Shown: positions 3,549 through 30,089 of the stretch, piece by piece
Position numbering within the stretch: position 1 is the first letter of the stretch
Layout of the letters: each line of letters starts with the position of its first letter
From: a virus
DNA length: 40,590 nucleotides
Reading direction: 5' to 3' (one strand)
IMG/VR virus record: IMGVR_UViG_3300006335_000050
Location: 1-40,590 of that record
Made by a program: the position numbers and the translations under genes
The notes under the pieces: generated by a model
The model's input: only the letters and a program-made list of their open reading frames with translations
Told to the model about the DNA's origin: nothing
Databases searched by the model: none

Positions 3549-4432
3549 AGAATAAATATGAACACTATGCTAAAAGCGTTAAGGTTGAATGGAACTTGGG
3601 TAAACGATGTAATTATGACTGCTCGTATTGTCCAGCTGAAATTCATGATATGGAAAGTCCGCACACGGATATTAAAACACTTAAAAAGGCCGTCGACGAA
3701 CTATCCAAAATTAAAAATGTAAGAATTAGTCTTACAGGCGGTGAACCATTTGTTCATCCAAACATTACTGCCCTCTTAGATTATGCTCGCCCAAAAGTTA
3801 CTTGGATTAATGTAACAACAAACGGAACAAGATCCAAAAATTTTTATGTAGATATGCTCCAAAAATACTTGGATCATATTGTGTTTAGTTTGCATCTTGA
3901 GTACAATTGGGAACGCACTCTAGATACAATTATAAGCGTCTATAACACATCTAAAAACAAGATGGTACTTGTACACGTCATGATGCTTAATCACCGCTTA
4001 AACGACGTTGTAGACGCTTGTAGACGCCTTTCTAAAGCAGGAATACCCTATGCTTTACGTCCTATACGCTGGACTGAAGCACATGATATTTTTGAAGATT
4101 TGGAACGCTATTCTAAGGAAGAATTGGACTTTTTAAAAACGGAAAATCACAATCCGCCTGCTAATACTTTAATTGATGGGAAGATTGAATGTAACGTAAA
4201 TGACTTGCTTATTAATAAAACTAATAAATTTAAAGGGTGGAGTTGTACAGCAGGAGTGGAAAGTTTAATGGTAAATTGGGATGGTGACGTACATCGTGCT
4301 ACTTGTCGCGTTGGGGGTAGTTTAGGTAATATCTATAAAGGGACTTTTAAAAGGCCAACTGAAAATATTATTTGTACACGAGATTGGTGTACTTGTGCCG
4401 CGGATATTAATCTTACGAAATATACTTTGTAA
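3536..4432 (+). CDS. Radical SAM enzyme with SPASM-like C-terminal cysteines
   Basis: This 298-residue protein has the cluster motif Cys25-x3-Cys29-x2-Cys32 (CNYDCSYC), with LTGGEPF near residues 64-70 as the SAM-binding glycine motif. The last 60 residues carry six cysteines in a SPASM-like arrangement (SCTAG, TCRVG, CTRDWCTC), which would bind an auxiliary cluster. SPASM enzymes commonly act on peptides, proteins or sugars. It belongs to a subgroup with the genes at 4413-5414 and 8076-9044, all with a C-[DN]-Y-D-C-[ST]-Y-C core. It starts 13 bases inside the upstream gene, and its last 20 bases are shared with the convergent gene. Confidence 0.88.
   Translation: MFKVENKYEHYAKSVKVEWNLGKRCNYDCSYCPAEIHDMESPHTDIKTLKKAVDELSKIKNVRISLTGGEPFVHPNITALLDYARPKVTWINVTTNGTRSKNFYVDMLQKYLDHIVFSLHLEYNWERTLDTIISVYNTSKNKMVLVHVMMLNHRLNDVVDACRRLSKAGIPYALRPIRWTEAHDIFEDLERYSKEELDFLKTENHNPPANTLIDGKIECNVNDLLINKTNKFKGWSCTAGVESLMVNWDGDVHRATCRVGGSLGNIYKGTFKRPTENIICTRDWCTCAADINLTKYTL
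4413..4432. repeat. 20-bp palindromic coding overlap of convergent genes
   Basis: The bases shared by the two convergent radical SAM genes read TTACGAAATATACTTTGTAA. The two 10-base halves are reverse complements at 8 of 10 positions. Read on the plus strand it ends one protein in T-K-Y-T-L-stop; on the minus strand it ends the other in T-K-Y-I-S-stop. The symmetry continues imperfectly outward (about 13 of 18 positions per arm). It may act as a weak bidirectional terminator, though the stem is AT-rich and has no loop spacer or U-tract, or it may simply reflect two homologous C-termini meeting head to head. Confidence 0.7.
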
Positions 4433-5414
4433 TATGAGTATCTGGTAAACAGTTACACTCTTTAAAAGGGCATTTGATTGGTTTTAAATCAAATAATTTT
4501 TCTTGAAATTCTTCTTTAAATGTTTCTGAAAAAAGATTAATTTTTGCATCTTTAAAAATATTTGCATTACATGATCCTGCAACAGTACCATCATATGTTA
4601 TAATTAAATTTTCTATAGGTACATGACAAGTCCAATCGGTAAAATAATTCCATTTATTATGAACATATCCTTCAGATTTCATAGTTATTGCACTACCATC
4701 ATTAAATAAAGCAACACTCTGAAATACATTAAAATCATCAATATGTTTTAATATGTACTTTGGATCTGGAACTCTTTTAATAGTATTTGCAACATAGTCT
4801 ATTTGTTCTTGAGTATAAGAGTTAATATCTTTACCTGGGAATTGAAGAATACTTTTAGCTTCTATAATCCAAGGTTGTTTACTAGTTTTCATCTTCTCTA
4901 CAATAGCAATACACTTGTCCCAATGCTCACAATCCATTAACATTAATGCCCCAACATTTAAATTGTTTTCATATAGAAAGTCACCTACTTTCATAAAATG
5001 ATCTACATCCATAAACTCATGATGGGCACTTAACGTTGCTCTATCTAAGTATTCAACATTTTCTTCCCACCATCTTAAAGTTCTAGAAGCATTAGTTGTT
5101 ACTTTAAGTTGAACATTGTGTTCTTTTTTAATTTCTTTACAAAATGTATTAAAGTGCGGCCAAAGGGTTGGCTCACCGCCACCTGCTATACACAACCAAA
5201 ATTCTGTTTTATTAAATTTTTTAGTATAGACATCAAACAATGTTCTAAAGTTTTTTATTACAGTATCAACATTCTTAGGATACCTATATATTCCGGGATG
5301 AGAATCAGCAAAACAATATGTACAATCATAATCACAAATATCGGTTGGGAAAAATCTAATATCTAAAACATGAGATGGTTGCGTTGAAACTATTTTGTTA
5401 GGTTTCGTAATCAT
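4413..5414 (-). CDS. Radical SAM enzyme with SPASM-like C-terminal cysteines
   Basis: This 333-residue protein has Cys27-x3-Cys31-x2-Cys34 (CDYDCTYC), then GGGEPT near residue 78. Its C-terminal 90 residues contain cysteines in WTCHVP, GSCNAN, KCPFKEC and NCLP, a SPASM-like set for an auxiliary cluster. It is the last gene of the ten-gene minus operon, overlaps the upstream stop by 4 bases (ATGA), and converges on the plus-strand radical SAM gene with a 20-base shared end. Both of those proteins finish in a C-x-C...D...[IL]-T-K-Y tail, pointing to common ancestry. The substrate is unknown. Confidence 0.88.
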   Translation of the reverse strand: MITKPNKIVSTQPSHVLDIRFFPTDICDYDCTYCFADSHPGIYRYPKNVDTVIKNFRTLFDVYTKKFNKTEFWLCIAGGGEPTLWPHFNTFCKEIKKEHNVQLKVTTNASRTLRWWEENVEYLDRATLSAHHEFMDVDHFMKVGDFLYENNLNVGALMLMDCEHWDKCIAIVEKMKTSKQPWIIEAKSILQFPGKDINSYTQEQIDYVANTIKRVPDPKYILKHIDDFNVFQSVALFNDGSAITMKSEGYVHNKWNYFTDWTCHVPIENLIITYDGTVAGSCNANIFKDAKINLFSETFKEEFQEKLFDLKPIKCPFKECNCLPDTHITKYIS

Positions 5415-6832
5415 AATAAATGTTCCAATTCTGGAAAAACATTAGACGCTTTTAATCCTCTAATAGCATCTAGTTTAGTTACATACTCTTTGAAGCCTGG
5501 AAGTAAATAACTATTATCTTGTGCATCCATATGATCCATTACTGCTTCCCAACGTTTCCAACCATAAGGATTAATTTTCCAATACTCATCATCTTGTCTA
5601 TAATTAGTAAACAGCCAATCTTTGAATTCTAAATAACGTTCTCTAACTTCTTGCTTATCTTCTTTAGGTAATATTTGTATACTTAAAAATGTAGGAATAT
5701 AAAGTAAATGCATATTAACTAATCCACCGCCCATTTGTGTTCCGCCTGGAACTGTACCTACATTAAGTTTTTTAAATTTAGATTGTACTTTCCACTTCAT
5801 AAAATCAGGTAAGTGTTTTACATTAAAAATTTGTATAGCAGTGGCTAAACTTGTTTGTATATTGTCAGGCGTATTATCTAGCATATGAAGATTCTTTTCT
5901 ACAACTGACCATTCCGTTGGAAAACGTATATATTCATCACGTTGGAAACAGGCATCCATACTAACTGCAAATTTAACTTTCTTAAACTTACTCCATAACT
6001 CAATTAAATCTTCGTCTACTAATATACCATTTGAATTATATCTTAATAAGATTTTATCTTGATAGCCTTGACGTATAATTTCTTCAATAAATGTTTTATG
6101 TTCTCTAATCATTAAAGGTTCACCACCAGCAAAATATACTTGCTTTAAGTTAGGAATTTGCTTATTCATTTCCTCCCAAAACGTTTCCTTCTCATGCCAC
6201 TTATTATTGAACTCTGATTTGTCCCAAGCCATTTGTCTTTTTACTTCAGGGTCTTCTAATTGCGGAACTAATTCTTTCCAGTCTTTAACCCATTGACTAG
6301 AATCATGCGGACTACACATTACGCATTTAACATTACACGTATGACCTAAACGTAAATCTAAATATACTAATTCTTCTGGAACTGTACCATCTTCTTGTGT
6401 TTGTTTAATTAATTCAGGAATATCTACTCCATCTTTATACCAAGTACCTGTTTCCCAAATACGTTTACTAACAACACCTATTTTTTCTTCATTAAAACAT
6501 TTAGTACAACTAGCAGGAATTTGTCCTTTAAGCATAGTAGTTCTTACTGACTTCATATAGTCATTGTTCCAAGCCTCCATAGGCGTTTCACGACCGAAGT
6601 TAGCAGGCTTACCATGTTCCATTTTTACTAACCCTACTTCATGATCACCAGTAGCCGCTCCGCTGGCATTAGCACTACAACATAAACGCATATCACCATT
6701 TGGTCTTGTTGCAAAATGTATCCACGGTAAAACACAGAACGTAGGAGATTTAGAAACGCCTTCTAACTGACGTTGCCATTTACCTAACTGTGAGTCTGCA
6801 GGATTATACCAATACTCGTTACTGTCAGTCAT
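5411..6832 (-). CDS. Radical SAM enzyme with N-terminal twitch domain
   Basis: At 473 residues this is the longest of the four twitch-first enzymes. The N-terminal cluster site is Cys33 (FCVLPW), Cys51-Cys52, Cys109 and Cys112. The radical SAM motif is Cys166-x3-Cys170-x2-Cys173 (CNVKCVMC), followed by YFAGGEPL around residue 226 and RYNSNG, both typical of the family. It ends in the shared FPEL tail (VFPELEHLL). The start overlaps the upstream isoaspartate methyltransferase stop by 8 bases and its stop overlaps the next start, so it sits inside a translationally coupled string. FCVLPW...CC is close to the CILPW...CC of the gene at 15730-16908. Confidence 0.9.
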   Translation of the reverse strand: MTDSNEYWYNPADSQLGKWQRQLEGVSKSPTFCVLPWIHFATRPNGDMRLCCSANASGAATGDHEVGLVKMEHGKPANFGRETPMEAWNNDYMKSVRTTMLKGQIPASCTKCFNEEKIGVVSKRIWETGTWYKDGVDIPELIKQTQEDGTVPEELVYLDLRLGHTCNVKCVMCSPHDSSQWVKDWKELVPQLEDPEVKRQMAWDKSEFNNKWHEKETFWEEMNKQIPNLKQVYFAGGEPLMIREHKTFIEEIIRQGYQDKILLRYNSNGILVDEDLIELWSKFKKVKFAVSMDACFQRDEYIRFPTEWSVVEKNLHMLDNTPDNIQTSLATAIQIFNVKHLPDFMKWKVQSKFKKLNVGTVPGGTQMGGGLVNMHLLYIPTFLSIQILPKEDKQEVRERYLEFKDWLFTNYRQDDEYWKINPYGWKRWEAVMDHMDAQDNSYLLPGFKEYVTKLDAIRGLKASNVFPELEHLL

Positions 6833-7478
6833 CTTCTAATTCCTTTACAAGTGGGACAAATCTTACTCCTATTAAAGATTGTTGCTCAATCAGTGGAACC
6901 CCAGCAATTTCCTTTTTCTTTGTAACTAATAATAATTCACCCTTAACAGGTATAATCATTTTTCCGCCAACTACTAACTGTTTTGTTAAGTCAACTGGAA
7001 TTTCATCTGCCATAGCTGTTACCATAATTCTATCATAAGGTGCAAATTCTTTCCACCCTTTATAACCGTCGCCAACTTTACTAATAATATTTTTATACTT
7101 TTTAAGTTTTGGTGCAGTCTTATCATATAATTCTTTAATTCGTTCTACAGTATAAACTTCCTGTACTAGTTCAGATAATACAGCGGCTTGATAACCTGAA
7201 CCCATTCCTATTTCTAGTACTCTATGCAATGGTTGGAGTTGAAGCATATCAGTCATATATGCTACAATGAAAGGTTGCGAAATAGTTTGTCCATGCCCAA
7301 TAGGAACTGGCATATCTTCGTATGCTAATTCACCTACAAAATGATGTCTTGGTATTAAAGTCATAGCATATATAATTCTTGAATCAATAGCTTTTCCACC
7401 GGCATAACTTAAAGCATGAGCATTAATTGTTTGTAACATTTCGTTCTGTAACTGTTTATCTATTAATCTAGTTTTCAT
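6825..7478 (-). CDS. pcm: Protein-L-isoaspartate O-methyltransferase
   Basis: This 217-residue protein is at the usual length of bacterial Pcm. The family hallmark GHGQTISQPFIVAYMT lies around residues 62-77, the SAM-binding motif LEIGMGSGYQAAVL follows near residue 87, and IPRHHFV precedes them. Pcm methylates isoaspartyl residues formed by damage to Asn/Asp, starting their repair. It is unusual to find this cellular repair enzyme in a phage modification cluster. It may protect long-lived virion proteins, or may have been adapted to methylate a modified carboxylate made by its neighbours, which is inference. It overlaps both neighbours (4 and 8 bases). Confidence 0.9.
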   Translation of the reverse strand: MKTRLIDKQLQNEMLQTINAHALSYAGGKAIDSRIIYAMTLIPRHHFVGELAYEDMPVPIGHGQTISQPFIVAYMTDMLQLQPLHRVLEIGMGSGYQAAVLSELVQEVYTVERIKELYDKTAPKLKKYKNIISKVGDGYKGWKEFAPYDRIMVTAMADEIPVDLTKQLVVGGKMIIPVKGELLLVTKKKEIAGVPLIEQQSLIGVRFVPLVKELEDD

Positions 7479-8086
7479 TTTCTTCCAATTATCATATACC
7501 TATCGTATTCAGGCAACTCTAATGTACCTGAATAAAACTCTTTACTAATTTTTGAATTCCATCTAAAATCTTTTAGACTATCTACACAATTAATATGTTC
7601 TTTATGTGATGCAAAATTATTACTTTGAACAACTATCCATGCATCACCAGGAACTTTTTCTAACCAAGCATCATATTGTTGTTGTGTAATATGTTCACAA
7701 CTTGTATTAATAACAATGTGTGGATCTTCTGTATATTCATAATTACACATATCTTCTGTAACTGCATTAAACTTACCGTTCATTGCATACGCTTTGTTCA
7801 TATTTACTGCTATGTCCTTACACGCAGGATCAATATCAACACTTGTAATATGTTTTGCTCCAACATCACTATTAAAAATCATTGTTGCTAGTACTCCATA
7901 CCACCCGCCAAAAATAACTATTCTATTTGATATAGTATGTTCAACGTTAGCAAGTGTTTCACATAACCATATTTTACTCTTAAGTTGTCCATGCCAGAAG
8001 CTTTCTAGCATATGATAACGCATATGATTATCTTCGTTCCGGATTCCATCCATCCAGTAAGCAATATCATTAAGATCAATTTTCAT
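7475..8086 (-). CDS. Class I SAM-dependent methyltransferase-like protein
   Basis: This 203-residue protein has a Rossmann-type SAM-binding site: IVIFGGWYGVLA around residues 56-67 as motif I, and SVDIDPACKDIA around 84-95 where an acidic residue would bind the ribose. ITEDM-like and VINTSCEHI segments follow as motifs II and IV. The motif-I glycines are spaced as GGWYG rather than the classical GxGxG. It overlaps pcm downstream by 4 bases and the radical SAM gene upstream by 11. It could methylate the same substrate as the radical SAM enzymes. The target cannot be told from sequence. Confidence 0.7.
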   Translation of the reverse strand: MKIDLNDIAYWMDGIRNEDNHMRYHMLESFWHGQLKSKIWLCETLANVEHTISNRIVIFGGWYGVLATMIFNSDVGAKHITSVDIDPACKDIAVNMNKAYAMNGKFNAVTEDMCNYEYTEDPHIVINTSCEHITQQQYDAWLEKVPGDAWIVVQSNNFASHKEHINCVDSLKDFRWNSKISKEFYSGTLELPEYDRYMIIGRK

Positions 8087-9044
8087 TTACTAGCTCTTTG
8101 GGTATTTTACTATCTGCACTACTTACACAAGTTGGTGTTATACAACGGTGGGGTTCTTTAAATAAAGTAAATCCTTCGTCAATAGTACCTAACGGCTCGT
8201 CATGACAGCTATACCCTCTTTTAATTTCGCCTCCTGGTTCTCGAATAATACAACTTTGATAGCCTGCATTACACATCCACCCTTTAAACTTATTAAATTG
8301 ATGGGCATTTAATCTTTCTGCTTGATCTAAAGTGTACTCCTTTCCGTCTTTATCATATAATGCAAGTTGACTTATTTCTTGTTCCATATCATTTTGTAAT
8401 ATTTCCCATTGTTCAGAAGTATATCCTTCAACTACTGCACTTGCTATTTCATTACTTTGCGGTTTAAGAGTAACGTGTAATCCTTCACTTTTAAAACGTT
8501 CAGCTCTTTCATAATATTCATCAAACATAGCAGGAACCATAACTTGATTAATTGTAACTAACACTCCTTGCTCTTGCAAAAATTTTAGTTTTCCCGCAAA
8601 TTCTTTTTCATCAGAAAATTCTGCATGATAACTTGCTGTTATGCTTTTACGATCTAATCCATCTGTTGCTGTTAACCATTTGTTCCACCAATTAAATCCT
8701 GGACTAGCATTAGTAGTCATATGCACACTAAGATAATCACTAACCGGCTCTTTATATGCTTTAATTAAATCTATTAATCCTTTATATGCAGTTGGCTCAC
8801 CACCACTAAAACTAAAATGAAACTTCTCAAATCCATTAGCTCTAGCTTGGCTTTTAATTTGATCCATTGTTTGAATATACTGTTCAAACGGTCTGTGGTC
8901 TACAACTTTACTTTTAGCATACGGCCAACAATAACTACAATCGTAATTACAAAATCTTCCTAAGATCCAACTAACTGAAAAAACATTATTTTCCAGCATA
9001 GTTCTTTGTCCTAGTTTAACTATATTTTCAAATGGTATTGTCAT
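8076..9044 (-). CDS. Radical SAM enzyme with SPASM-like C-terminal cysteines
   Basis: This 322-residue protein has Cys32-x3-Cys36-x2-Cys39 in the context W-I-L-G-R-F-CNYDCSYC, almost the same as W-N-L-G-K-R-CNYDCSYC in the gene at 3536-4432, so the two are paralogues. FSFSGGEP follows near residue 82. C-terminal cysteines (MCNAG, SCIIRE, YSCHDE, CITPTC) suggest one auxiliary cluster. It overlaps the upstream gene by 4 bases and the downstream methyltransferase by 11. The strongly kept N-terminal half and divergent C-terminal half suggest a different substrate from its paralogue. Confidence 0.88.
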   Translation of the reverse strand: MTIPFENIVKLGQRTMLENNVFSVSWILGRFCNYDCSYCWPYAKSKVVDHRPFEQYIQTMDQIKSQARANGFEKFHFSFSGGEPTAYKGLIDLIKAYKEPVSDYLSVHMTTNASPGFNWWNKWLTATDGLDRKSITASYHAEFSDEKEFAGKLKFLQEQGVLVTINQVMVPAMFDEYYERAERFKSEGLHVTLKPQSNEIASAVVEGYTSEQWEILQNDMEQEISQLALYDKDGKEYTLDQAERLNAHQFNKFKGWMCNAGYQSCIIREPGGEIKRGYSCHDEPLGTIDEGFTLFKEPHRCITPTCVSSADSKIPKELVNEN

Positions 9045-10111
9045 GATATATGCTTTGTTGTATTAAAGATTGTTTTAGAACACGCTTTGACACACGTCAT
9101 ACACTTACTATCGCCGTGCCAATAATCGCCCATATGTTCCCATAGTATAATATCTTCATCAAGAACGCCATCTTTACAATTTGGTACTCCAATATTTTTT
9201 AACATATCTTTTGTATTTTGTGCTGTCATATTTCTTAACGCATGAATAGGTAACGTTTCTTCTAATGGATCTTCTAAATAATCACTACCTATCAAACAAC
9301 ACGAAAAAATATTTCCATACGGGTCAACATATATACCCTGGTCTTCCATACACTTCGGTTTAATAATAGCTTTACTAATTGCTTCATATCTAACATCAGC
9401 ATCTAATAAACTATCTAATGTTTTATTTGGTACTTTTTTATATTCTGATCGTGTAGCAGGTTCAAGATCGTATTCATAATTTCCATCTAAATCTTGAACT
9501 GCAAATTTATCCAAGTCATAAAATCTTGCAGTACTAATAAAGTTTACTTTTTGCACACCTTTTCCTAATAAAAAATATTCAAGTGTTTCAACATTATCTT
9601 GATTATGTTTAAAAACTAAACTGTCTACTCTTGCTACGCCGCCTGCTTTAATAAATGCTTCCATGTTATCAATAACTTTTGAAAACTTTGTATTTCTTCT
9701 GTACAGTTCATGCGTTCCTTCAAACCCATCTATGCCAAAAACAACTTGACTATGATTTACTGATCCTATTACAGGAGCAAGTTTACTCCACCACTCTTCG
9801 TTACGCATACCACCATTAGTATGAAGTGCTAATCTACAAGTAGGATTTGCATCTCTTACATACTGAAAAATTTCTAAACAATCTTGTGCAAATGCAGGGT
9901 CACCATAATTTCCACAACTATAAAAATTTGTTAACTGAGCTAAAAATTCTTTTGGGAACCATTCTTTAAATTCAGCTATACTAATATCTCCATTACGAAT
10001 AAAAGGTTTTGTAGCACCTCCGTGAAAATTTCTTGCACACATTGGACATTGTGCTTGGCACTTATCAGTTAGTTCAATATGAACTGTTTTTATATCCTTA
10101 ATTCTCTGCAT
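9041..10111 (-). CDS. Radical SAM enzyme, SPASM-type
   Basis: I place the start at the ATG complementary to 10109-10111, giving 356 residues and a 14-base overlap with the upstream stop; an upstream in-frame codon at 10207 would add 32 basic residues lying inside the upstream gene. The cluster motif is Cys18-x3-Cys22-x2-Cys25 (CQAQCPMC) directly after IELTDK, the arrangement common in SPASM enzymes. FGIDG and a long SPASM-like C-terminus follow: KCMED...GNIFSCCLIGSD, NCKDG and KCMTCVKAC. It is more like general SPASM enzymes than its neighbours and belongs to a different subgroup from the CNYDCSYC proteins. Confidence 0.88.
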   Translation of the reverse strand: MQRIKDIKTVHIELTDKCQAQCPMCARNFHGGATKPFIRNGDISIAEFKEWFPKEFLAQLTNFYSCGNYGDPAFAQDCLEIFQYVRDANPTCRLALHTNGGMRNEEWWSKLAPVIGSVNHSQVVFGIDGFEGTHELYRRNTKFSKVIDNMEAFIKAGGVARVDSLVFKHNQDNVETLEYFLLGKGVQKVNFISTARFYDLDKFAVQDLDGNYEYDLEPATRSEYKKVPNKTLDSLLDADVRYEAISKAIIKPKCMEDQGIYVDPYGNIFSCCLIGSDYLEDPLEETLPIHALRNMTAQNTKDMLKNIGVPNCKDGVLDEDIILWEHMGDYWHGDSKCMTCVKACSKTIFNTTKHIS

Positions 10112-10778
10112 TATATTGTTCTTTAAGCCATTTAAAATCATTAATTTTAAATAATGCTTCTCTATTACCTTGGTTCGCTTCTCCGTATTTTTTACCTGCG
10201 TTTGCACCCATTATAGCATAATCACCATTTGGCTTATCCATACCTTCATTACACCATACCATTAATCGCATTTCAGTTTCTTCGTCTACTTGTCCTCTAA
10301 TAAGTCTACTTGACAACTTAACACATTCGCGGAATGCACTTTTCCACGTATTAAAAGGATCTGTATTAAATGCTGTAATATTACTAATTTCTTCATGGGC
10401 GAAAAATTTATTACTAATACTAGTTGTCATATCAGGATGAGTAACATCCATATCTATTGTAAGTTGTCTTGGCAATAACTTTACACCACCATGACCGTAT
10501 TCTAAAAAGTTTACAGGGTTTTGGCAACGCCATACATGAACAGCATCATGATCCCATTTACTTGCAATATAATCAAACTTCCAATCTTCTTTTAACTGAG
10601 CATCTCCGTCTACTACCCAAAACATTTTTGTAAAACACTTTTTAGCCGCGGCTATATGTGCTTGATGTATTCCTTTCACCCCATGGACACGCTTGGCCAT
10701 AGGAAACCTTGCCTTTAAATCTTCGTAAACTTTATCTGCATTAGGTTCTTCATAGCTTATAAAAACAATATCATACAT
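10098..10778 (-). CDS. Glycosyltransferase-like protein (SYEEPNA/DGD family)
   Basis: The start is the ATG at 10778, preceded by GAGGAA 6 bases upstream; the TTG at 10790 would put the ribosome site inside the gene. The 226-residue protein opens with IVFISYEEPNADKVYEDL, then KRVHGVKGIHQAH and WVVDGDA. The DGD resembles the DxD metal/nucleotide-sugar motif of GT-A glycosyltransferases. It is a clear paralogue of the gene at 18558-19454 (SYDEPNA, KRVHGVEG, VDGD), but about 70 residues shorter. From what I recall such proteins occur in marine phages without biochemical assignment. The gene lies between the JmjC-like gene and a radical SAM gene. Confidence 0.6.
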   Translation of the reverse strand: MYDIVFISYEEPNADKVYEDLKARFPMAKRVHGVKGIHQAHIAAAKKCFTKMFWVVDGDAQLKEDWKFDYIASKWDHDAVHVWRCQNPVNFLEYGHGGVKLLPRQLTIDMDVTHPDMTTSISNKFFAHEEISNITAFNTDPFNTWKSAFRECVKLSSRLIRGQVDEETEMRLMVWCNEGMDKPNGDYAIMGANAGKKYGEANQGNREALFKINDFKWLKEQYNAEN

Positions 10779-10786
10779 CTTATTCC

Positions 10787-11329
10787 TCAATCAAAATTAA
10801 TTGATAACGATAATCTTTCTTCAGGAACAGTAACAACCTGATGTTGTGTTCCTGTAGGTATAACAATAACATCATTTTTATGTGTAACTAATGATTTGCC
10901 TCCAACTAACCAATCAGACGAACCATGTAACTGTTTAACTATAACCTCATACTCATGCTGGTGGGCAGGAAAACTTGCAGTTTGCGTTTTATTACCTTTT
11001 GATATATAAAAATTAGCATTAATAGGAGATCCGAATCCTAAAGTTAATTTTCTTTCTAATGAACGTAATTCAGCAGTTAAATCTAAGACATTAGAAATAA
11101 TAGCAGTAAACCCTTCATCATAGTAACTTTTAAATATGTCAAAATTTATAAATCCATCATGTTTAAATAAATCATAATGATTAACTGATACCCCCTTATT
11201 AGTAATAATTTCAATTGCTGGCTGTCCCCAAGGATATGAATGGGGCCATCTACGTCTTACTTTTAAGAAGTTTAAAACATCTGCATTTTTTAAATTTATT
11301 TTATGGTCAATAATAATATTTTTAAACAT
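10787..11329 (-). CDS. JmjC/cupin-like 2-oxoglutarate oxygenase homologue with HxH site
   Basis: This 180-residue protein has the second-half signature of RoxA-type JmjC oxygenases: AHQHEYEVIVKQLHGSSDW at residues 122-140, with VIVIPTGTQHQV at 154-165. The typical sequence is H-x-D-x-Y-D-V-F...Q...G...W. Here the alignable positions are His123 and His125, so the acidic iron ligand is replaced by His, with His163 as the third ligand. Such enzymes hydroxylate His or Arg on proteins using Fe(II) and 2-oxoglutarate; a three-His site would change the chemistry or make it a binding protein. It is shorter than RoxA (about 370 residues). It overlaps the upstream SGNH gene by 8 bases. Confidence 0.65.
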   Translation of the reverse strand: MFKNIIIDHKINLKNADVLNFLKVRRRWPHSYPWGQPAIEIITNKGVSVNHYDLFKHDGFINFDIFKSYYDEGFTAIISNVLDLTAELRSLERKLTLGFGSPINANFYISKGNKTQTASFPAHQHEYEVIVKQLHGSSDWLVGGKSLVTHKNDVIVIPTGTQHQVVTVPEERLSLSINFD

Positions 11330-12173
11330 AAGGCTCCAATTCTTTTGCTAATTGCTCGTGCAATATCCGTCCTGGATGGGCATTATCAGGAAAATCATCT
11401 GACTCTTTCATATAATTAACAATTTCTTCATAGTCGTTTACTATTTTTTTAAATTCTTCTGTTTCAGCTAAATCAGGTCTAAGAGCTTGAATATTATTTA
11501 GACCTTCCCAAGATGTAACTAAAGGTATATCTCTACCTAGTATTTTTTTCAACCAATCTTTATGAACGTGCTTAATAAAAGAATAATCGTTTTCCATTCC
11601 CCAAGTGCGTCCCCATCCTTCAATTACAATCCAAGGAATGTTTGTTTCATCATAAACACGTTGAGCACCTTCAAATGCAACTTGCACTAAAGTACGATCT
11701 AATTCACGAACTGTTTTAGTATAATCTATACCAGCTTTATAACTTGCTTCAAAATGTTTTTCTAAATCTATAAGACCAGCTTCACTGGATCCAAGTCTTT
11801 GCTTTTCAACTCGTGTATAATTTCTAATAGGTTCTGTTAACATCCAAATAATAAGATCAGGATTATAAAATGTTGAAGCTGTAAAGGGAGGTGCTAATCC
11901 TAATGCTTCTTCTGATTTAAAAACTGCGTCAAAATTTCCAGCACCACCAAAAGAATGATTAGCTACAGCATGACCAAATAATGTTTCTAAGTAATAACCA
12001 AATCCAGGCCAAACTACTTGAAAAGGTTTAGGATATTTTGAATCAAGATATTTGTCTTGATTAAAAGGTCTAAAAATAGTATTGTTATTGTTATTTGCAA
12101 CGCCAGGACCTGGAGTAATTTGTCCCCATTCACCTAACCCGTTACTGTCTCCAACTATTAATATTCTTTTCAT
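11322..12173 (-). CDS. SGNH/GDSL-type hydrolase-like protein
   Basis: This 283-residue protein begins with MKRILIVGDSNGLGEW, the block I GDS with the putative nucleophile Ser10. Near the C-terminus DNAHPG supplies an Asp-x-x-His pair like block V. Middle blocks are less clear: SFGGAGNFD (residues 73-81) can stand for the Gly block, and PDLIIWMLTE for the block with Asn/Thr. SGNH enzymes are esterases or acyl-esterases, often removing or adding O-acetyl groups on glycans. It overlaps the dehydrogenase upstream by 4 bases (ATGA). Together with the second SGNH protein at 14820 it suggests acylation chemistry on a sugar. No signal peptide is seen, so it acts in the cytoplasm. Confidence 0.65.
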   Translation of the reverse strand: MKRILIVGDSNGLGEWGQITPGPGVANNNNNTIFRPFNQDKYLDSKYPKPFQVVWPGFGYYLETLFGHAVANHSFGGAGNFDAVFKSEEALGLAPPFTASTFYNPDLIIWMLTEPIRNYTRVEKQRLGSSEAGLIDLEKHFEASYKAGIDYTKTVRELDRTLVQVAFEGAQRVYDETNIPWIVIEGWGRTWGMENDYSFIKHVHKDWLKKILGRDIPLVTSWEGLNNIQALRPDLAETEEFKKIVNDYEEIVNYMKESDDFPDNAHPGRILHEQLAKELEPYV

Positions 12174-13342
12174 CGTGTGTTGCCATAATAGATAACCTTG
12201 TGTTTAGTTGATTTATACTTTCTCCAAGGATCTACTACAATACTATCATCATTCAAGTAACAATATAATTCAGAATGTGCTAATAATACAATAGCACTAA
12301 ATGGTCCTTTCTGCGGACATATCAATGGATCAACTCTCATACAATGATATTCGACTTCTGAACAATAATGTCCAACTAACAAACTATAACTACCATCCAT
12401 TATATCTACTCCTGGTTTATAACTAATACCATTTAAAAGTATTGGTAGGTTAGTTTCGTTAGCTAACATGACTAATTTCTTAGCCATGTTTTTGGCCTGT
12501 ACTTCTCTAGCTTTCATTATAGCATCAAACATATCATATTGCAAGTCCAATTTTTGAGCCATATGCCGTAATGCAATATTATCTCTTGGGTGGCAAGATC
12601 CACCATCACCCATTCCTGCTGTCATATATTTTGAACTAATAATTCGTTTTTTACTTTTTGAAAGAGCGTTAGTGACTACATCGACATTAATATTACCTTG
12701 CTTTTCAGCAACATCTTGGATCATGTTAACAAATCCAATTTTCATACTAATAAAAGTATTATAAAAGATTTTAATACATTCAGCTTCGTCCCACGTTCCT
12801 ATTTCATAACGTGGTTTATTTGCCATTATAGTTTTATAAAACTCTACTAACTGTTCTGCATCAGAAGTTAGTTTTCCATCTTCAGTTCCAATAATTACCA
12901 TTTCAGGATTTATCATATCCCACGCTACAGTTCCCATAGCTATAAAATAGGGATTATAAACAAACCGTGTGTTGGTAACTAACTGAACAAACTCATTACG
13001 AGTAGTACCTGGCAAAACCGTACTAATAAGAACTAATAATTGTTCCTTATTCATATGTTCATTAGCTTCTCGTAAAACGTCAACTACAATATCATAACAA
13101 AAATCTTTGGGTTCTAAATGCGATGTCGGCGCTTTACCGTCATAATCAGGATGATGCGGAGTTGGTACAGCAACAAAAATAATGTCTTGATCTTTAACTG
13201 TTTCTTTTATAGTATTCTTAACAGTAATAACATCACTTTTTACTTCAGCAATATCATAACCAGTTACATCGTGACCTTTTTCAGCAACGACAGTAGCACA
13301 TGGTAATCCTAATTTTCCTAAACCAATAAACGCTATCTTCAC
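12170..13342 (-). CDS. UDP-glucose/GDP-mannose dehydrogenase family protein
   Basis: The start is a GTG at 13342, chosen because GGAGAG lies 8 bases upstream and the protein then begins directly with VKIAFIGLGKLGLP, the NAD-binding glycine motif. An upstream in-frame ATG at 13387 would fall before the likely transcript start. The 390-residue protein has the expected marks: VAVPTPH, STVLPGTTR, EAECIKIFYNTFISMKI with the catalytic Lys, GGSCHPRDN with catalytic Cys250, and GISYKPGVD in the C-terminal domain. These enzymes oxidise a nucleotide sugar to its uronic acid. It is the first gene of the ten-gene minus operon, behind the late-promoter element at 13388-13394. Confidence 0.9.
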   Translation of the reverse strand: MKIAFIGLGKLGLPCATVVAEKGHDVTGYDIAEVKSDVITVKNTIKETVKDQDIIFVAVPTPHHPDYDGKAPTSHLEPKDFCYDIVVDVLREANEHMNKEQLLVLISTVLPGTTRNEFVQLVTNTRFVYNPYFIAMGTVAWDMINPEMVIIGTEDGKLTSDAEQLVEFYKTIMANKPRYEIGTWDEAECIKIFYNTFISMKIGFVNMIQDVAEKQGNINVDVVTNALSKSKKRIISSKYMTAGMGDGGSCHPRDNIALRHMAQKLDLQYDMFDAIMKAREVQAKNMAKKLVMLANETNLPILLNGISYKPGVDIMDGSYSLLVGHYCSEVEYHCMRVDPLICPQKGPFSAIVLLAHSELYCYLNDDSIVVDPWRKYKSTKHKVIYYGNTR

Positions 13343-13370
13343 ACGATCTCTCCAATCATTATATACGTAC

Positions 13371-13377
13371 ATAAATA
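13371..13377 (+). promoter_or_regulatory. Late-promoter element (ATAAATA)
   Basis: cATAAATAc matches the T4-type late -10 element (TATAAATA core) 31 bases before the start at 13409, leaving a short leader. It lies in the 66-base gap between divergent operons, 10 bases from the opposing element on the other strand. No strong Shine-Dalgarno follows. Confidence 0.6.
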
Positions 13378-13387
13378 CGTAAAACAA

Positions 13388-13394
13388 TATTTAT
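13388..13394 (-). promoter_or_regulatory. Late-promoter element (ATAAATA)
   Basis: On the minus strand the sequence reads ccATAAATAtt, a T4-type late -10 element. The GTG of the dehydrogenase gene is about 46 bases downstream and has a good Shine-Dalgarno (GGAGAG), so a transcript from here would carry a leader of roughly 40 bases. It opposes the plus-strand element at 13371-13377. Confidence 0.6.
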
Positions 13395-13408
13395 GGTAAA
13401 AATTCTAT

Positions 13409-14686
13409 ATGATCCCTTTAATTGAATACATCAAAAGAAACGTATATATACGACAACCTGGGAGCTCACTTGCGTCTCAAAAATTTCTAGAAGCATTTAA
13501 CCGAAATAACTGCTTTGATCCTAAAATAATACTTCTTCATGCTTTGATAAAATACCCACGTTGGCATAAAGAGATTAGTCTATTCCCATACCTAAATAGA
13601 AAAATGTTCAAACAATTACGTAAAAATCCAAAAGTGTTTTTTATGTTAGATGCAAGTACTGAAGGATTTAGTACCATATACGGTAATACTCCATTTTTTG
13701 ATATCTTGTATTATAATTGTAAAAAATTCCATGTGCCACCAGAAAAAATAATTTTTATTTCATCTAATATGGTTGAAGAACAAAATTTAATCAGATATAA
13801 TACTGAACATGGTATAGATAGATCTATTAATGTTGCTTGTTTTAATAACTTTGAACAGATGCTTTTTAACATGAAAAAAGAAACATTACCACAATATGAT
13901 ATTGCATTCAATCCAGTGGCACTTGATAAACTTGTAGAAGCAAGATATCTTGAAGTGCTTAGAGATACTAAAAGATTTTATTACGGTGAAAAATACTTCT
14001 TAAGTCTTAGTAGGGTAAATAGACCCCATAGAATTTTAAGTGCTTATGAATTATTTAATAGTAAGATATTTGATAAAGGTATAGTGAGTCATAATAAAAT
14101 AAAAAGTACATCTGAAAATCTATATGCACTTTGTAGCACATTACCTGCAAACTGTGGCATAACACCAAATGACTTGGCAAGGTTTAGTAAGTATCTACCT
14201 TTAGTTGCAGACACTAACGACTTCGAAACTAATCACGCTATGGCATTAAATTCTCATTTAAATAATGCTACATTATTTCAAGTAGTAGGAGAAACATTCG
14301 CAGATGATTGTTGGGGCACTAGCAGATTCTGGAGTGAAAAAACATTTCGTTCTATATTTCATATGCAACCATTTATTGTTTGGGGGCAACCTAATGCTAA
14401 TAAAAATTTACAAGATTACGGCTACAAGCTATATGATAAAATGTTTAATTATAGCTTTGATACAGAAAAGGATACATATAAGCGTTGGACAATGATTCTA
14501 AACGTAATTAATGATACTGTAAAACACTTAAATAAAATGAGTAAAGCAGAACATTTAGAATGGCGGTTTCAACAACAAGATGTGCTTAAACATAACTATA
14601 AAGTAATGTATCGTGAAAATCATACTAAAGAGGTATTTAAAAAACTTGCATTTAAAATAATAAAACTAACAACATATGAATTATAA
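13409..14686 (+). CDS. Glycosyltransferase-like protein (exostosin/fucosyltransferase-like C-terminus)
   Basis: This 425-residue protein has no signal peptide or membrane segment. The C-terminal half has FLSLSRVNRPHR (about residues 197-208), then LFQVVGETFADD, FWSEKTFRSIFHMQPFIVWG and LQDYGYKLYD. Such a TEKT-type segment, followed by a pocket that ends in pFi.wG and a Gly-Tyr/Phe-Lys stretch, resembles the nucleotide-sugar-binding half of GT-B enzymes such as exostosin or GT10 proteins. The N-terminal half is unrecognised. It is the first gene of a three-gene plus operon behind the ATAAATA element at 13371. Assignment as a glycosyltransferase is tentative. Confidence 0.5.
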   Translation: MIPLIEYIKRNVYIRQPGSSLASQKFLEAFNRNNCFDPKIILLHALIKYPRWHKEISLFPYLNRKMFKQLRKNPKVFFMLDASTEGFSTIYGNTPFFDILYYNCKKFHVPPEKIIFISSNMVEEQNLIRYNTEHGIDRSINVACFNNFEQMLFNMKKETLPQYDIAFNPVALDKLVEARYLEVLRDTKRFYYGEKYFLSLSRVNRPHRILSAYELFNSKIFDKGIVSHNKIKSTSENLYALCSTLPANCGITPNDLARFSKYLPLVADTNDFETNHAMALNSHLNNATLFQVVGETFADDCWGTSRFWSEKTFRSIFHMQPFIVWGQPNANKNLQDYGYKLYDKMFNYSFDTEKDTYKRWTMILNVINDTVKHLNKMSKAEHLEWRFQQQDVLKHNYKVMYRENHTKEVFKKLAFKIIKLTTYEL

Positions 14687-14819
14687 ACCTGAAGAAGAAA
14701 AAGATAAAAAAAGAAAAGAACGCGAAAAACTAATGAAGAAGTTTCTTGCCAAGGGTGGAAAAATTGAAAAAATTCCATATAGCGTAACAAAAGAACAGTT
14801 GAAGCGAGGACAATTTTAA
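14676..14819 (+). CDS. 47-residue basic protein of unknown function
   Basis: A short frame starts at the ATG at 14676, overlapping the upstream stop by 11 bases, and ends one base before the ATG at 14820. The protein is lysine- and glutamate-rich, with a charged helix (residues 5-24) followed by FLAKGGKIEKIPYS and a basic tail. There is no cysteine, no signal peptide and no leader-core look of a peptide precursor. The exact fit between its neighbours and the coding-like composition support it as a real gene. A nucleic-acid- or polymerase-binding role would be a guess. Confidence 0.65.
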   Translation: MNYKPEEEKDKKRKEREKLMKKFLAKGGKIEKIPYSVTKEQLKRGQF

Positions 14820-15746
14820 ATGAAAATGTTAATTACTAATAAACCTAAAAGACTATTTACATTTGGCTGTAGTTTTACAGATTATATATGGGGGACTTGG
14901 GCAAATATTTTAGGCTATGAATTCCGTAAAGCTGACTTTTATAATTTCGGAAAAGCTGGTGCTGGTAATCAATATATTTTTAATGTATTAATGCAGGCTG
15001 ATGCCGCATATAATTTTACACACGAAGATTTAATAGTAGTCCAATGGACAAATGTAAGTAGAGAAGATCGATATTTTCACGCTGGACATCATGGTGTATT
15101 ACATGACTCAGAAACAAAACACGGAGCGTGGTCTACACCAGGCAATATTTATAGTCAAGATATTTACGACGAAGAGTGGGTTAAAAAGTATTTTAGCGAA
15201 TATGGTGCATTAGTAAGAGATTTAGCATTTATTAAAGCGGCTCATGGAATGCTTAAACATAAAACTCAATGGCATTTCATACAAATGAATAATTTAGTAC
15301 ATTACGTTGATCAATGGGATTCGAAAATAACACTTGACCAACCAAAAATATTTGGTAACAAAGAACGAATACGACAATTAAGAGAGTTATATGCTGAAAC
15401 TATAAGTATTCTCCAACCTAGTTTTTATGATGTGCTTTATAACAACAATTGGACTCAGAAATTTAAAGCAGATAAAAAATTAGTTAATAAATTTTTTCAA
15501 GATGGACATCCACACCCATTAGAACATTATGACTTTTTAAAACGCACATTTAAACACGAATGGAGACCTAGCACTAACGAAAAAGTTGGTGAAATACAAA
15601 AGAAATGGGTTAAACTAATGAACGATGTATCAGCTACTATACCAAAGTTTAGTATTTACAATGAAACAAAACGTTGGCATGATATGGCAAAGTTTGAATT
15701 ATGTATACGTCAATCTAACAATATCGATTTTAGAACACACCGGTAA
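14820..15746 (+). CDS. SGNH hydrolase-like protein
   Basis: This 308-residue protein opens with RLFTFGCSFTDYIWGTWA at residues 11-28, where GCS replaces GDS of block I and Ser18 would be the nucleophile. NFGKAGAGNQYIFN (around 42-55) looks like the Gly/Asn block, and DGHPHPLEHY near residue 235 is a block V Asp-x-His equivalent. It is a different subgroup from the SGNH protein at 11322-12173. It is the last gene of the plus operon and converges on the twitch-type radical SAM gene with a 17-base overlap of their ends. An acyl-transfer or deacylation role on a glycan fits the neighbours but is inference. Confidence 0.6.
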   Translation: MKMLITNKPKRLFTFGCSFTDYIWGTWANILGYEFRKADFYNFGKAGAGNQYIFNVLMQADAAYNFTHEDLIVVQWTNVSREDRYFHAGHHGVLHDSETKHGAWSTPGNIYSQDIYDEEWVKKYFSEYGALVRDLAFIKAAHGMLKHKTQWHFIQMNNLVHYVDQWDSKITLDQPKIFGNKERIRQLRELYAETISILQPSFYDVLYNNNWTQKFKADKKLVNKFFQDGHPHPLEHYDFLKRTFKHEWRPSTNEKVGEIQKKWVKLMNDVSATIPKFSIYNETKRWHDMAKFELCIRQSNNIDFRTHR

Positions 15747-15767
15747 GTTCAGGAAATGTTTCTAAAA
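15728..15767. repeat. Inverted repeat at a convergent gene junction
   Basis: TTTTAGAACA (15728-15737) and TGTTTCTAAAA (15757-15767) can pair as an 8-bp AT-rich stem plus two pairs past a one-base bulge, with a loop of about 19 bases. It spans the overlapping stops of two convergent genes and could end transcripts from both sides. The stem is weak and there is no clean U-tract, so this is a suggestion only. Confidence 0.3.
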
Positions 15768-16908
15768 AGTTTCTATCTCTTATTTTATCATAGTGCTTTG
15801 TAAAAGATTGAAACTTAATATGCGACTCAGGATTATATTCTGAATAATCAATATACCTTAAAACTCCATTTAATTGCGACCTTATTCCGAGACCTGTAAC
15901 AGTTTTTAAATAATTTGCAATTTTTTGATAAGCTACTTGTTTATACTTGCTAGGTAATACTGCTAAAGTATAATGTTTAGGATCTACAATGTTATATAAA
16001 ATGCCATTTGATATATCAAATCCTTGACTTTGCATATATTCTAAAAAATCAGTAATAGTTATAATATTAAAAACACTAACAACTGTATTAAAATTTAATT
16101 TAACATGAGGGGACTCTTTTTTTATAATATTTAAATTATTTTCAACATCAGTCCAAACAGTTCCCTCCCTTATATATTCAGCACGATTGCCCCAGCTATC
16201 TAAACTAGCATCAACTTGAACGTTAGCAAATTGATTCCATAATGTAGTAATACATTCTTTTTTATAAAACAAATTACTAACATTAGAATTATATCTTAAT
16301 GTAACATCAGTACGATTATTATCAATTAAGTATTCTAAAATATCATAATGCTTATCAGTAAGTAATGGCTCTCCACCAGCAAAATAAAAAACATCTATAT
16401 CTTTATAATAAGGTTCAAATTGTTCATATAAAGCATCATTGTTTTCGCCGCCTGCAAAAATAAAACTATTTTCTTTACCATCTTCTTGAGCCCAACTAGA
16501 ACTAAATGTTGCACTACACGTTCTACATTTAAAATTACAAATATTACTCCAACGCACATCCATATAACGTAATTTCATTTCATCAAGACTACCGTCTGGA
16601 TTGGTTTCGTCAATAAACGACATATACTTTGCAAACTGTCTATTGTTATGCATACGTGAACTCTTATTACCTGCTTCTTCGTGTGTCCAACATTGGCGAC
16701 AAACTGTAGGCTTCATCCCAGAAAGCATTGCCAAACGTAATTTTTTATATTCAGAACTATTCCAAATATCTTTTATAGAATTTGTATGTGTATTTCCTAA
16801 TGGTTTATTATAATCGCCTATACAACAAGGTAATACTTTACCATCTGCATTGACATACATATGAAGCCACGGAAGAATACATAGTGTTTTAGAGCTGTTT
16901 GCAGTCAT
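15730..16908 (-). CDS. Radical SAM enzyme with N-terminal twitch domain
   Basis: I use the ATG at 16908, overlapping the upstream stop by 20 bases, rather than a TTG at 16941. This gives 392 residues. The twitch site is Cys10 (LCILPW), Cys28-Cys29, Cys70 and Cys73; the radical SAM motif is Cys124-x3-Cys128-x2-Cys131 (CNFKCRTC), followed by FYFAGGEPLL and LRYNSN. The protein ends TFPELTGVF, the tail shared with two other twitch enzymes here. It is the last gene of the long minus transcription unit that begins with the virion genes, and converges with the SGNH gene. Confidence 0.9.
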   Translation of the reverse strand: MTANSSKTLCILPWLHMYVNADGKVLPCCIGDYNKPLGNTHTNSIKDIWNSSEYKKLRLAMLSGMKPTVCRQCWTHEEAGNKSSRMHNNRQFAKYMSFIDETNPDGSLDEMKLRYMDVRWSNICNFKCRTCSATFSSSWAQEDGKENSFIFAGGENNDALYEQFEPYYKDIDVFYFAGGEPLLTDKHYDILEYLIDNNRTDVTLRYNSNVSNLFYKKECITTLWNQFANVQVDASLDSWGNRAEYIREGTVWTDVENNLNIIKKESPHVKLNFNTVVSVFNIITITDFLEYMQSQGFDISNGILYNIVDPKHYTLAVLPSKYKQVAYQKIANYLKTVTGLGIRSQLNGVLRYIDYSEYNPESHIKFQSFTKHYDKIRDRNFLETFPELTGVF

Positions 16909-18265
16909 TATAAAATTTTTGTAGTTCTGGAAACGTTTCAACTAAACTACATTCTCTCCTTTTATCAAACTCAGTAAACCAATGATAAAAATCAGTACGA
17001 GCTTGTTTAAGTTTTGCTTCTTCATAATGAGTAGTTCTCATATAATCTACTACACGCCGAAATTTCTCAACTTCAATGACACTGAACTTTGTTCTATCTC
17101 CTTCTCTCTCATTATCTTGTAAAAAATCCAAATGTTGAAACATATACGGCATAAAGTCGTCTTTTGGTAAAATATTCATATCGTATATGCTAGGTTCTTT
17201 TAGATGAGGGGTGTCGAATCTTATACGTTGCCATTGTGTTTCATTGTCAGTGGAGTTATATTTTGTTCTCCACTCAAGAATTTTTTCTAATAATAAAGTA
17301 AAACTAGTTACAGAAAAAATATTAAAAGTAATCATAAAAGTTACGGGCCAACCTGTGTTACTTAAATAATAATCTAAATTTTCTTCCCATAATTTAATAT
17401 CTAACCCTGTACGAGCGTACTCGGCACGAGGTCCCCACGTATCAATACTAGTATAAAGTTTAAAACTTCTAATCTTATTGCCTGCCCTTAACATCTTAAC
17501 CTTCTCTGTTAGCTTATGTACCAACGCAGGCTTAACACCCATATTACTATTAACTTCTATTTGTATATGAGGTTTAGGATCTTTATCTAACTTGTCAAAC
17601 AAGTCCCACAAACTCTTGTGCATTAAGGGTTCTCCGCCAGTAATGCGTAATATGTTTAACGTCTTACTAACTTCAGGCCACCATTTCCACCATGCTTCTA
17701 CATAGGGGTTTTCTTCTTCCCTATCATACACCTTAAACCAGTCAATATCTTGCTTATGTGTACTTGACATACTATAAGGACCATGATCTTCTATCTCTTT
17801 CCAGTATCTACTACTGGCTTTGGGGTGACAATACCCACATTTGAAGTTACATTCATTTGAAAAACTAATTTCTATGTATTCAGGATTGATATTAAAGTCA
17901 TCATCTTCCCTTTCAATCTCTTGAACACGTTCACGTGTGTATATACTTGCTGTTTTAATATGCCTATCACTAATATATCTATCACCCATTGCCTCAATCT
18001 TCCAACAATAGTTACACCCTTCTGGTTTTTCTCCGCATAACATTTGTTTACGTTGTGCTTTTTTCTCTTTTGTATTATGTAACGCACTAGGATTGTCTTT
18101 TAACTCTTCTAATGGTATAGGGTGCGGTGCAGGATGATAACAACTATGTGTTTCACCTGTTGCAAGATAGATAGTAGTATGATGCCATTTAGCTAAACAA
18201 AATGTTGGACTAAACATCTCGTTTGTGATAGGTAGTACTTTTTTAATTCTGTCTATTTCATTCAT
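16889..18265 (-). CDS. Radical SAM enzyme with variant N-terminal twitch domain
   Basis: This 458-residue protein has Cys139-x3-Cys143-x2-Cys146 (CNFKCGYC), then LRITGGEPLMH near residue 210. The twitch region is altered: Cys23, a single Cys42 followed by Tyr-His-Pro instead of the usual Cys-Cys pair, then Cys84 and Cys87. The protein ends TFPELQKFYND. Its start shares one base with the upstream stop (TAATG) and its end overlaps the next radical SAM gene by 20 bases, so the two are likely made together. The Cys/His pattern may still bind a cluster, with His44 as a possible substitute ligand. Confidence 0.88.
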   Translation of the reverse strand: MNEIDRIKKVLPITNEMFSPTFCLAKWHHTTIYLATGETHSCYHPAPHPIPLEELKDNPSALHNTKEKKAQRKQMLCGEKPEGCNYCWKIEAMGDRYISDRHIKTASIYTRERVQEIEREDDDFNINPEYIEISFSNECNFKCGYCHPKASSRYWKEIEDHGPYSMSSTHKQDIDWFKVYDREEENPYVEAWWKWWPEVSKTLNILRITGGEPLMHKSLWDLFDKLDKDPKPHIQIEVNSNMGVKPALVHKLTEKVKMLRAGNKIRSFKLYTSIDTWGPRAEYARTGLDIKLWEENLDYYLSNTGWPVTFMITFNIFSVTSFTLLLEKILEWRTKYNSTDNETQWQRIRFDTPHLKEPSIYDMNILPKDDFMPYMFQHLDFLQDNEREGDRTKFSVIEVEKFRRVVDYMRTTHYEEAKLKQARTDFYHWFTEFDKRRECSLVETFPELQKFYNDCKQL

Positions 18266-18561
18266 TAAGCTACCCAGTTCAAATTTTTTGCATATTCTTC
18301 TGGTTGGATTTTTTCTGAAGGTCTAACTTGTGGATACTTTAATTGAAACAACATAGCTTTACGTTCATCTTTAAATGTTGCATATATGTGGCAATGAAGC
18401 ATATCAAAGTCTTGGGGTACACTTCTTTCTTCCATTAGCTTTCCACCATAAAGAAATGCATCACTTAATACGTCACCTAATTGCTCTTGCATAATTGTAT
18501 CGTGCCATATATCAGAACTTTCATCATCTTTCATACGAAATGTTCCTATATAGTATCTCAT
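18265..18561 (-). CDS. 98-residue protein of unknown function
   Basis: I do not recognise this protein. It starts RYYIGTFRMKD, has an acidic middle and ends in NLNWVA. There is no membrane segment or cysteine motif. Alternating hydrophobic residues near both ends (RYYIGTF, CHIYATF) suggest a small alpha/beta fold. It overlaps the glycosyltransferase-like gene upstream by 4 bases and the radical SAM gene downstream by 1, so it is translated in a coupled string. It could be a small partner of the radical SAM pair that follows. Confidence 0.7.
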   Translation of the reverse strand: MRYYIGTFRMKDDESSDIWHDTIMQEQLGDVLSDAFLYGGKLMEERSVPQDFDMLHCHIYATFKDERKAMLFQLKYPQVRPSEKIQPEEYAKNLNWVA

Positions 18562-19454
18562 TTTCTACCTATTACCCTATCGGTATTAACGTAAACAGTT
18601 TTAAAGAACTTACTTTGATCCTTTGACAACGGTTGATGATCCATTGGTAAGCCTAATTTATTTAAACGCCAACCAAGTTCACCTACTCTATGATATATTT
18701 CTTCGTCTGCTACTTTACTATATGTTTCATTCCACATTTTATTAAGGATAGTAAAGTCTCGTGTTTGTGAAACGTCCCAATCAGTAAGTGCAAGATGACA
18801 ACCTTCTCTAGCACCATAAATTGCCCATATACCATACTCTACATCAATACCAACATTCATCCATATTAACAATCTATGATAATTTTGCCACCAAACATCT
18901 TTTGCTAAATTAGTAACCTTTGTCCCTCTGTTAAGACTCATCTTAACACCTTCTCTAAAACCAGCTCTAAAGGCTTGGGCTTTAGTTGAGTTAATAATAC
19001 TTTCACTATAGTTGTCATTTAATTGATAATAATTGTCAAAATAGCAAAACTCTATCATAGTATCATCGTTACCATCTGTGTTTTCGTGTGTACGCATATT
19101 CTTAACAAAGTCTTTAGTCCACATTTTTAAACTACCATTACCATACATTAACCCATTGACGTTAACTTTGCCGCACCAACTAAATTGATAATCATCATCT
19201 ACGCCTAACGCATCTAAGTCAAGAACAACATTTAAAAATGTAGGATTAATTATTGTATCTCCATCAACTGTAACAAAGTGTTTAGTTTCAGACAACTCTG
19301 CACACGCCTTATGAGCGGCATCTGATCCTTCTACACCATGAACCCGTTTAGCCCATGGTACTTTTTGTACTAAATCAACATAATTCTTTTCAGCATTAGG
19401 TTCATCATAGCTTAAAAATATAATATCTTGTTCTGCAAGTTTAATATCAGACAT
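18558..19454 (-). CDS. Glycosyltransferase-like protein (SYDEPNA/DGD family)
   Basis: This 298-residue protein starts with IIFLSYDEPNAEKNYVDL near residue 11, then WAKRVHGVEGSDAAHKAC and FVTVDGDTIINPTF. The VDGD is a candidate DxD metal/nucleotide-sugar motif and the flanking fold looks GT-A like. It is a paralogue of the 226-residue protein at 10098-10778, in a different operon. A later region (about 165-240) resembles the paralogue's AFRxGFREGVKxS segment, so similarity is full length. Coupled to kdsA upstream (8-base overlap), it may use a sugar made by that pathway, but a donor cannot be assigned. Confidence 0.6.
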   Translation of the reverse strand: MSDIKLAEQDIIFLSYDEPNAEKNYVDLVQKVPWAKRVHGVEGSDAAHKACAELSETKHFVTVDGDTIINPTFLNVVLDLDALGVDDDYQFSWCGKVNVNGLMYGNGSLKMWTKDFVKNMRTHENTDGNDDTMIEFCYFDNYYQLNDNYSESIINSTKAQAFRAGFREGVKMSLNRGTKVTNLAKDVWWQNYHRLLIWMNVGIDVEYGIWAIYGAREGCHLALTDWDVSQTRDFTILNKMWNETYSKVADEEIYHRVGELGWRLNKLGLPMDHQPLSKDQSKFFKTVYVNTDRVIGRK

Positions 19455-30082: not shown

Positions 30083-30089
30083 TATTTAT
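30083..30089 (-). promoter_or_regulatory. Late-promoter element overlapping a stop codon (AAATAAATAC)
   Basis: On the minus strand ctAAATAAATAc contains ATAAATA; the TAA stop of the giant gene lies within it. The start at 30064 is about 20 bases downstream. This lets the smaller tail genes be transcribed apart from the very long upstream gene. Confidence 0.6.

Follow-up and report, generated by a model that had tools for sequence, protein, structure and literature searches.

Is a marine-phage JmjC-like protein with histidine in place of its acidic iron ligand a one-off mutant, or does it function as an enzyme whose metal site has been altered? The question was raised by a reading made from sequence alone of one open reading frame in a viral DNA of 40,590 nucleotides (IMG/VR record IMGVR_UViG_3300006335_000050, hereafter the window), and it matters for a fold whose 2OG oxygenases have the two-His-one-carboxylate triad as their textbook signature. 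We consider the second answer probable, because the acidic ligand is replaced by His in every relative found. The frame at 10787-11329 begins with ATG and overlaps the adjoining genes on either side; its features are as follows.

10787..11329, minus strand: compact JmjC/cupin-fold protein of 180 aa, PHROG 29157 family (ORF translation, Pfam, PHROGs, AF2, fold search)
10961..10963, minus strand: codon of His123, first predicted metal ligand (conserved in 89/89)
10955..10957, minus strand: codon of His125, at the JmjC Asp/Glu ligand position (His in 89/89; aligned with RoxA D127)
10916..10918, minus strand: codon of Ser138, at the JmjC 2OG-binding Lys/Arg position (aligned with RoxA R140 and the MINA53 Lys)
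10841..10843, minus strand: codon of His163, distal predicted metal ligand (His in 88/88; aligned with the RoxA distal His)
10796..10816, minus strand: C-terminal strand R172-L-S174-L-S-I-N178, proposed 2OG anchor K/R-x-S and conserved Asn (conservation)

Fold and alignment register

The window protein matches phrog_29157 in PHROGs, a family of unknown function (E 6.5e-53), and has relatives in the cyanophages S-SSM7 and S-SSM6a, in Pelagibacter phage HTVC008M and in many IMG/VR contigs; copies 99-100% identical to it are present in five other IMG/VR contigs. In Pfam, JmjC_2 (PF08007) scored 25.6 bits against a gathering score of 22 and matched 49 of 57 family members at E <= 0.01, while Cupin_2 fell just under its gathering score (26.3 vs 27.2) and the AraC_binding profile also matched. 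The AlphaFold2 model (57 sequences) reached a pLDDT of 91.6 and a pTM of 0.89. When it was searched against the PDB with Foldseek, the best 24 matches were NO66 or MINA53 throughout (16-21% identity, E 1e-8 to 4e-7 and, with one exception, TM by query 0.72-0.74), with an alignment to NO66 spanning about 200 columns; YcfD and YxbC came next, then small cupins, and the cupin phosphoglucose isomerase and EutQ were among the matches. The best named matches in a viral structure library were cyanophage JmjC proteins. The AF2 model, the Foldseek search and the JmjC_2 score thus all indicate a JmjC-type double-stranded beta-helix barrel.

RoxA carries further C-terminal domains after its barrel, for dimerisation and a winged helix. 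The window protein is only 180 aa long, its chain stopping two residues beyond N178 in the final strand of the barrel, and therefore has no C-terminal domains of this RoxA/NO66 kind.

The sequence-only reading had placed HQHEYE at residues 123-128 and assigned V129, Q133, G136, W140 and H163 to the rest of the signature, all of which were found in the ORF translation. The RoxA-type register that it proposed was recovered by the family profile, which paired H123, H125, S138 and H163 with H125, D127, R140 and the distal His of E. coli RoxA (the RoxA fragment was compared without its first Met, and its own numbering is one lower). RoxA reads H125-L-D127-Q-Y-D and H187 where the window protein has H123-Q-H125-E-Y-E128 and H163. 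A phmmer alignment with MINA53 gave the same register, with HYDD over HQHE and GEKHW over GSSDW, and began at residue 83, so that the stretch before the motif is included. As the RoxA and MINA53 alignments agree, the acidic ligand is truly replaced by His, and the claim of such a replacement on a JmjC/RoxA-type fold also holds by the model and the fold search.

Conservation of the predicted metal site and a candidate 2OG anchor

Conservation was analyzed in 89 distinct phage proteins, forming 34 clusters at 70% identity with a lowest pairwise identity of 34%. H123, H125, Y127, W140, N106 and Y108 were invariant, and H163 was found in all 88 rows that reach it, one further row being truncated. 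Indeed, at identities of 34-45%, the three His together with about 20 further residues show little or no variation. The HxD/E...H triad of JmjC oxygenases is absent from this set, HxH being present throughout. Two outcomes that the sequence-only reading had named as refuting its claim were not observed: no homologue carries Asp at 125, and neither E126 nor E128 is a hidden ligand, because both positions vary freely (D/E/P/S/T/N/K/A/G at 126; D/H/N/E and others at 128), which rules out a concealed carboxylate there. Because the first family scan included the HxH motif and could have been biased by it, we scanned again with residues 1-117 only, and this motif-blind search still returned HxH proteins only. 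With HxH and H163 conserved in this way, a one-off loss is excluded and a dead enzyme is made less likely, and the three-His metal site is very probably real. A genome-contig scan for cellular HxH homologues with narrow patterns gave only an AraC-like protein (L092), 21% identical.

A second change, which the sequence-only reading did not mention, is that the JmjC 2OG Lys/Arg is missing, Ser138 standing in its place. From general knowledge and the present alignments, we take FIH K214, MINA53 K194 and RoxA R140 to be equivalent. The 2OG-binding lysine of JmjC enzymes is K214 in FIH, K336 in JMJD5 and K206 in KDM4A (PMC9712658). A Lys or Arg at 138, where the C5 carboxylate of 2OG would be bound, never occurs in the 89 homologues, which have S/C/A/T/G instead. 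On the last strand, K/R172 is present in 87/88, S174 in 87/88 and N178 in 87/87. In a 38-row comparison, rows without Lys/Arg at 138 had K or R at 172 and rows with Lys/Arg at 138 had none, the single exception being HTVC008M, whose reading frame ends early. R172 is presumably placed like Arg383 of the prolyl hydroxylase PHD2, nine residues past the distal His and on the final strand of the barrel. In PHD2, this Arg383 binds the C5 carboxylate of 2OG (PMC11525979). Tentatively, the 2OG anchor would thus have shifted to the candidate K/R172-x-S174 on the last strand, a conserved pair that may replace the JmjC lysine.

K132 (K in 85/89, R in 4/89) was also considered as a new anchor and was ranked below K/R172, because strand alternation should turn it outward. 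The HTVC008M member (L002:5980-6507) ends early, at EKNYH, compared with a near relative in L081, and lacks the K/R-x-S-x-x-x-N strand through a frameshift or a sequencing error.

Relatives, origin and genomic surroundings

The nearest cellular kin found for the HxH family are HxD JmjC proteins. A tblastn search of plasmids identified such proteins in Nostoc, Klebsiella, Pantoea and Streptomyces, all HxD with Lys at 138, and in five bacterial HxD proteins compared, K/R was present at 138 in 5/5 and at 172 in 0/5. The Nostoc protein shares with the window protein the NANLYFS context ahead of the motif. One scan with it as query returned no viral relatives; it also led to cyanophage HxD JmjC proteins (S-WAM1, syn9, Syn30, S-H38 and others). 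All 11 of the cyanophage HxD proteins examined have R172 and, at 138, Thr rather than lysine; the P-TIM40 protein has the Arg on the last strand without the S of the RLS-type motif. Like the HxH family, these proteins are small, phage-encoded, devoid of Lys at 138 and mostly equipped with the RLS motif; unlike it, they keep HxD and have Pro/Ala for N178 (Arg in P-TIM40).

The HxH proteins are of single origin. On a tree built leaving out positions 125, 138, 172 and 178, their rows formed one clade (support 99/99) beside the bacterial HxD proteins, and the phage HxD group stood apart from this clade, with deep placements unsure owing to long branches.

The plasmid genes have neighbors of their own. 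In Klebsiella (L176:5396-10778) and Pantoea (L177:5352-9865), an arginase-family gene is followed by two cupin/JmjC genes, with GNAT and MFS genes further along in Klebsiella, and the set looks like an uncharacterised biosynthetic operon. In Streptomyces (L178:2395-6981), YcaO-like, TfuA-like and JmjC HxD genes lie close to each other, possibly as a peptide-modification cluster.

To describe the surroundings of the phage family, genes within 6 kb were counted at 83 distinct loci. A 2OG-FeII_Oxy_3 cluster was met 50 times and a 2OG-FeII_Oxy_5 (PF13759) cluster 37 times; with the latter, these phages have another HxH barrel family. 2OG oxygenases are numerous in cyanophages, and an effect on nitrogen signalling and 2OG in the host has been proposed for them (PMC3037559). 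Most relatives lie in phage modules rich in 2OG oxygenases, a hint that some protein, nucleic acid or metabolite may be hydroxylated in the course of infection.

No recognisable 2OG-oxygenase neighbor was found in the window, where radical SAM genes and sugar genes are present instead. Eight radical SAM genes lie in 17 kb (1469-18265), starting at 1469+, 3536+, 4413-, 5411-, 8076-, 9041-, 15730- and 16889-; the one at 5411-6832 is of twitch-domain type, above the NCBIfam cutoff, and a protein-L-isoaspartate O-methyltransferase gene (6825-7478, above NCBIfam cutoffs) adjoins the radical SAM genes. Sugar genes include a 3-deoxy-8-phosphooctulonate (KDO8P) synthase (19447-20220, above NCBIfam cutoffs) and a nucleotide-sugar dehydrogenase-like gene (12170-13387). 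The frames 10098-10790 and 18558-19454 have no Pfam match and similar starts (ISYEEPNADKVYEDL... and LSYDEPNAEKNYVDL...), as apparent paralogues. An FG-GAP repeat is present in a 2992-aa protein (30086-39064) that lies near a tail-collar-domain protein.

Proposed reaction and comparison with known systems

We propose a phage mononuclear non-haem metal enzyme on a JmjC (RoxA/NO66-type) barrel, in which H123, H125 and H163 would hold Fe(II) instead of two His and one Asp. Most likely, O2 would be activated and a substrate oxidised; in the likeliest mechanism, 2OG would sit on the metal through its keto acid end, and K/R172, together with S174, would grip its far carboxylate from the last barrel strand in place of the usual JmjC lysine. 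Metal identity, O2 use and 2OG use are predictions from sequence. That the protein is an oxygenase of some kind is likely; 2OG dependence is about evenly poised. Against it, the protein lacks both JmjC sequence hallmarks, HxD/E as well as the Lys/Arg on the barrel, and the characterised three-His cupins work without 2OG (PMC4019311). For the whole reading, an Fe(II) three-His JmjC-barrel enzyme that still activates O2, likeliest with 2OG held by K/R172, we see as much in favor as against.

The protein could instead be a dioxygenase with three-His Fe(II) in which an organic substrate sits directly on the metal and no 2OG is needed, like the gentisate, cysteine and diketone dioxygenases. We hold this to be rather unlikely: its top fold matches are 2OG hydroxylases and not cupin dioxygenases, K/R-x-S is retained and 2OG oxygenases are its genomic company, although HxH...H without a conserved cupin Glu, the pattern of the phage family, fits such sites (PMC4019311), the JmjC 2OG Lys is gone, and there are weak sequence matches to gentisate 1,2-dioxygenase 3bu7 (E 0.014) and other Cupin_2 proteins. 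A non-oxidative metal-binding cupin (isomerase, epimerase, lyase or ligand sensor), perhaps loaded with Zn, Mn or Ni, could explain the Cupin_2 and AraC_binding matches, the sugar genes in which the window is rich (KDO8P synthase, nucleotide-sugar dehydrogenase-like) and the phosphoglucose isomerase and EutQ in the fold list. However, similarity to JmjC proteins extends ahead of the motif (to MINA53 from residue 83), the model aligns to NO66 over about 200 columns, and HxD JmjC proteins were the nearest cellular relatives found, making this reading improbable.

The loss of two catalytic hallmarks would be expected of a dead JmjC remnant retained as a binding protein, but dead sites usually drift, and the near-invariance of the three His and their companions at such low identity leaves this idea very little room. 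Finally, D125 might have been lost in a single mutation or misread in sequencing, an idea for which no supporting point was found. It is refuted by His in 89/89 homologues, and the near-identical copies in five contigs likewise speak against it; its probability is negligible. The altered-site enzyme thus remains our preferred reading. It would give phrog_29157, hitherto of unknown function, a testable enzyme class. Moreover, a small, abundant and fixed natural family with His for the carboxylate, together with sister groups that keep the Asp, makes directly testable why most 2OG oxygenases retain the carboxylate.

Compared with NO66, MINA53 and RoxA (YcfD), iron-dependent oxygenases that act on ribosomal proteins by hydroxylation, the phage protein has the same barrel fold, metal-site register and G and W of the signature, and shares an N-x-Y strand with MINA53; it differs in having HxH and not HxD, in the lost Lys/Arg at 138 and in the presence of K/R-x-S. 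With the cupins CDO, Dke1 and gentisate dioxygenase, in which three-His Fe binds substrate directly without 2OG (PMC4019311), it shares a three-His site on a cupin barrel; overall kinship to CDO, Dke1 and GDO was not found, the similarity being weak and limited to the cupin core and the fold search being led by JmjC proteins.

The PF13759 neighbors resemble the phage protein in HxH...H (37/37), and their C-terminal strand has Arg in 32/37 and Asn in 37/37 (an example lies at L134:5184-5777); the PF13759 profile matched neither the window protein nor its family in Pfam. The PDB entries 2rg4 and 3bvc are solved, uncharacterised PF13759 relatives sharing HxH.

In the open-licence papers covered, HxH in a JmjC fold is not unprecedented, as human JMJD8 illustrates; HxH...H is also present in PF13759, and with three-His cupin dioxygenases known as well, the phage family is not a new category. 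JMJD8, grouped with JMJD7/FIH, has an HxHxnH conserved among species, on account of which it was earlier suspected to be inactive (PMC5684140). It was later reported to demethylate lysine with Fe(II) and 2OG, an activity that the H179A/H181A double mutant lacks (PMC9820096). This speaks for the reading preferred here, but the activity report is a single one and faces the earlier suspicion (PMC5684140). Unlike the phage protein, JMJD8 is a eukaryotic ER protein, and our guess is that the two HxH motifs arose by convergence. Work on the phage family would inform the debate over whether JMJD8 is active. Tentatively, and with more doubt than belief, we picture a marine-phage clade that altered both halves of its active site and yet stays an active three-His 2OG oxygenase, an independent counterpart of JMJD8 beside PF13759.
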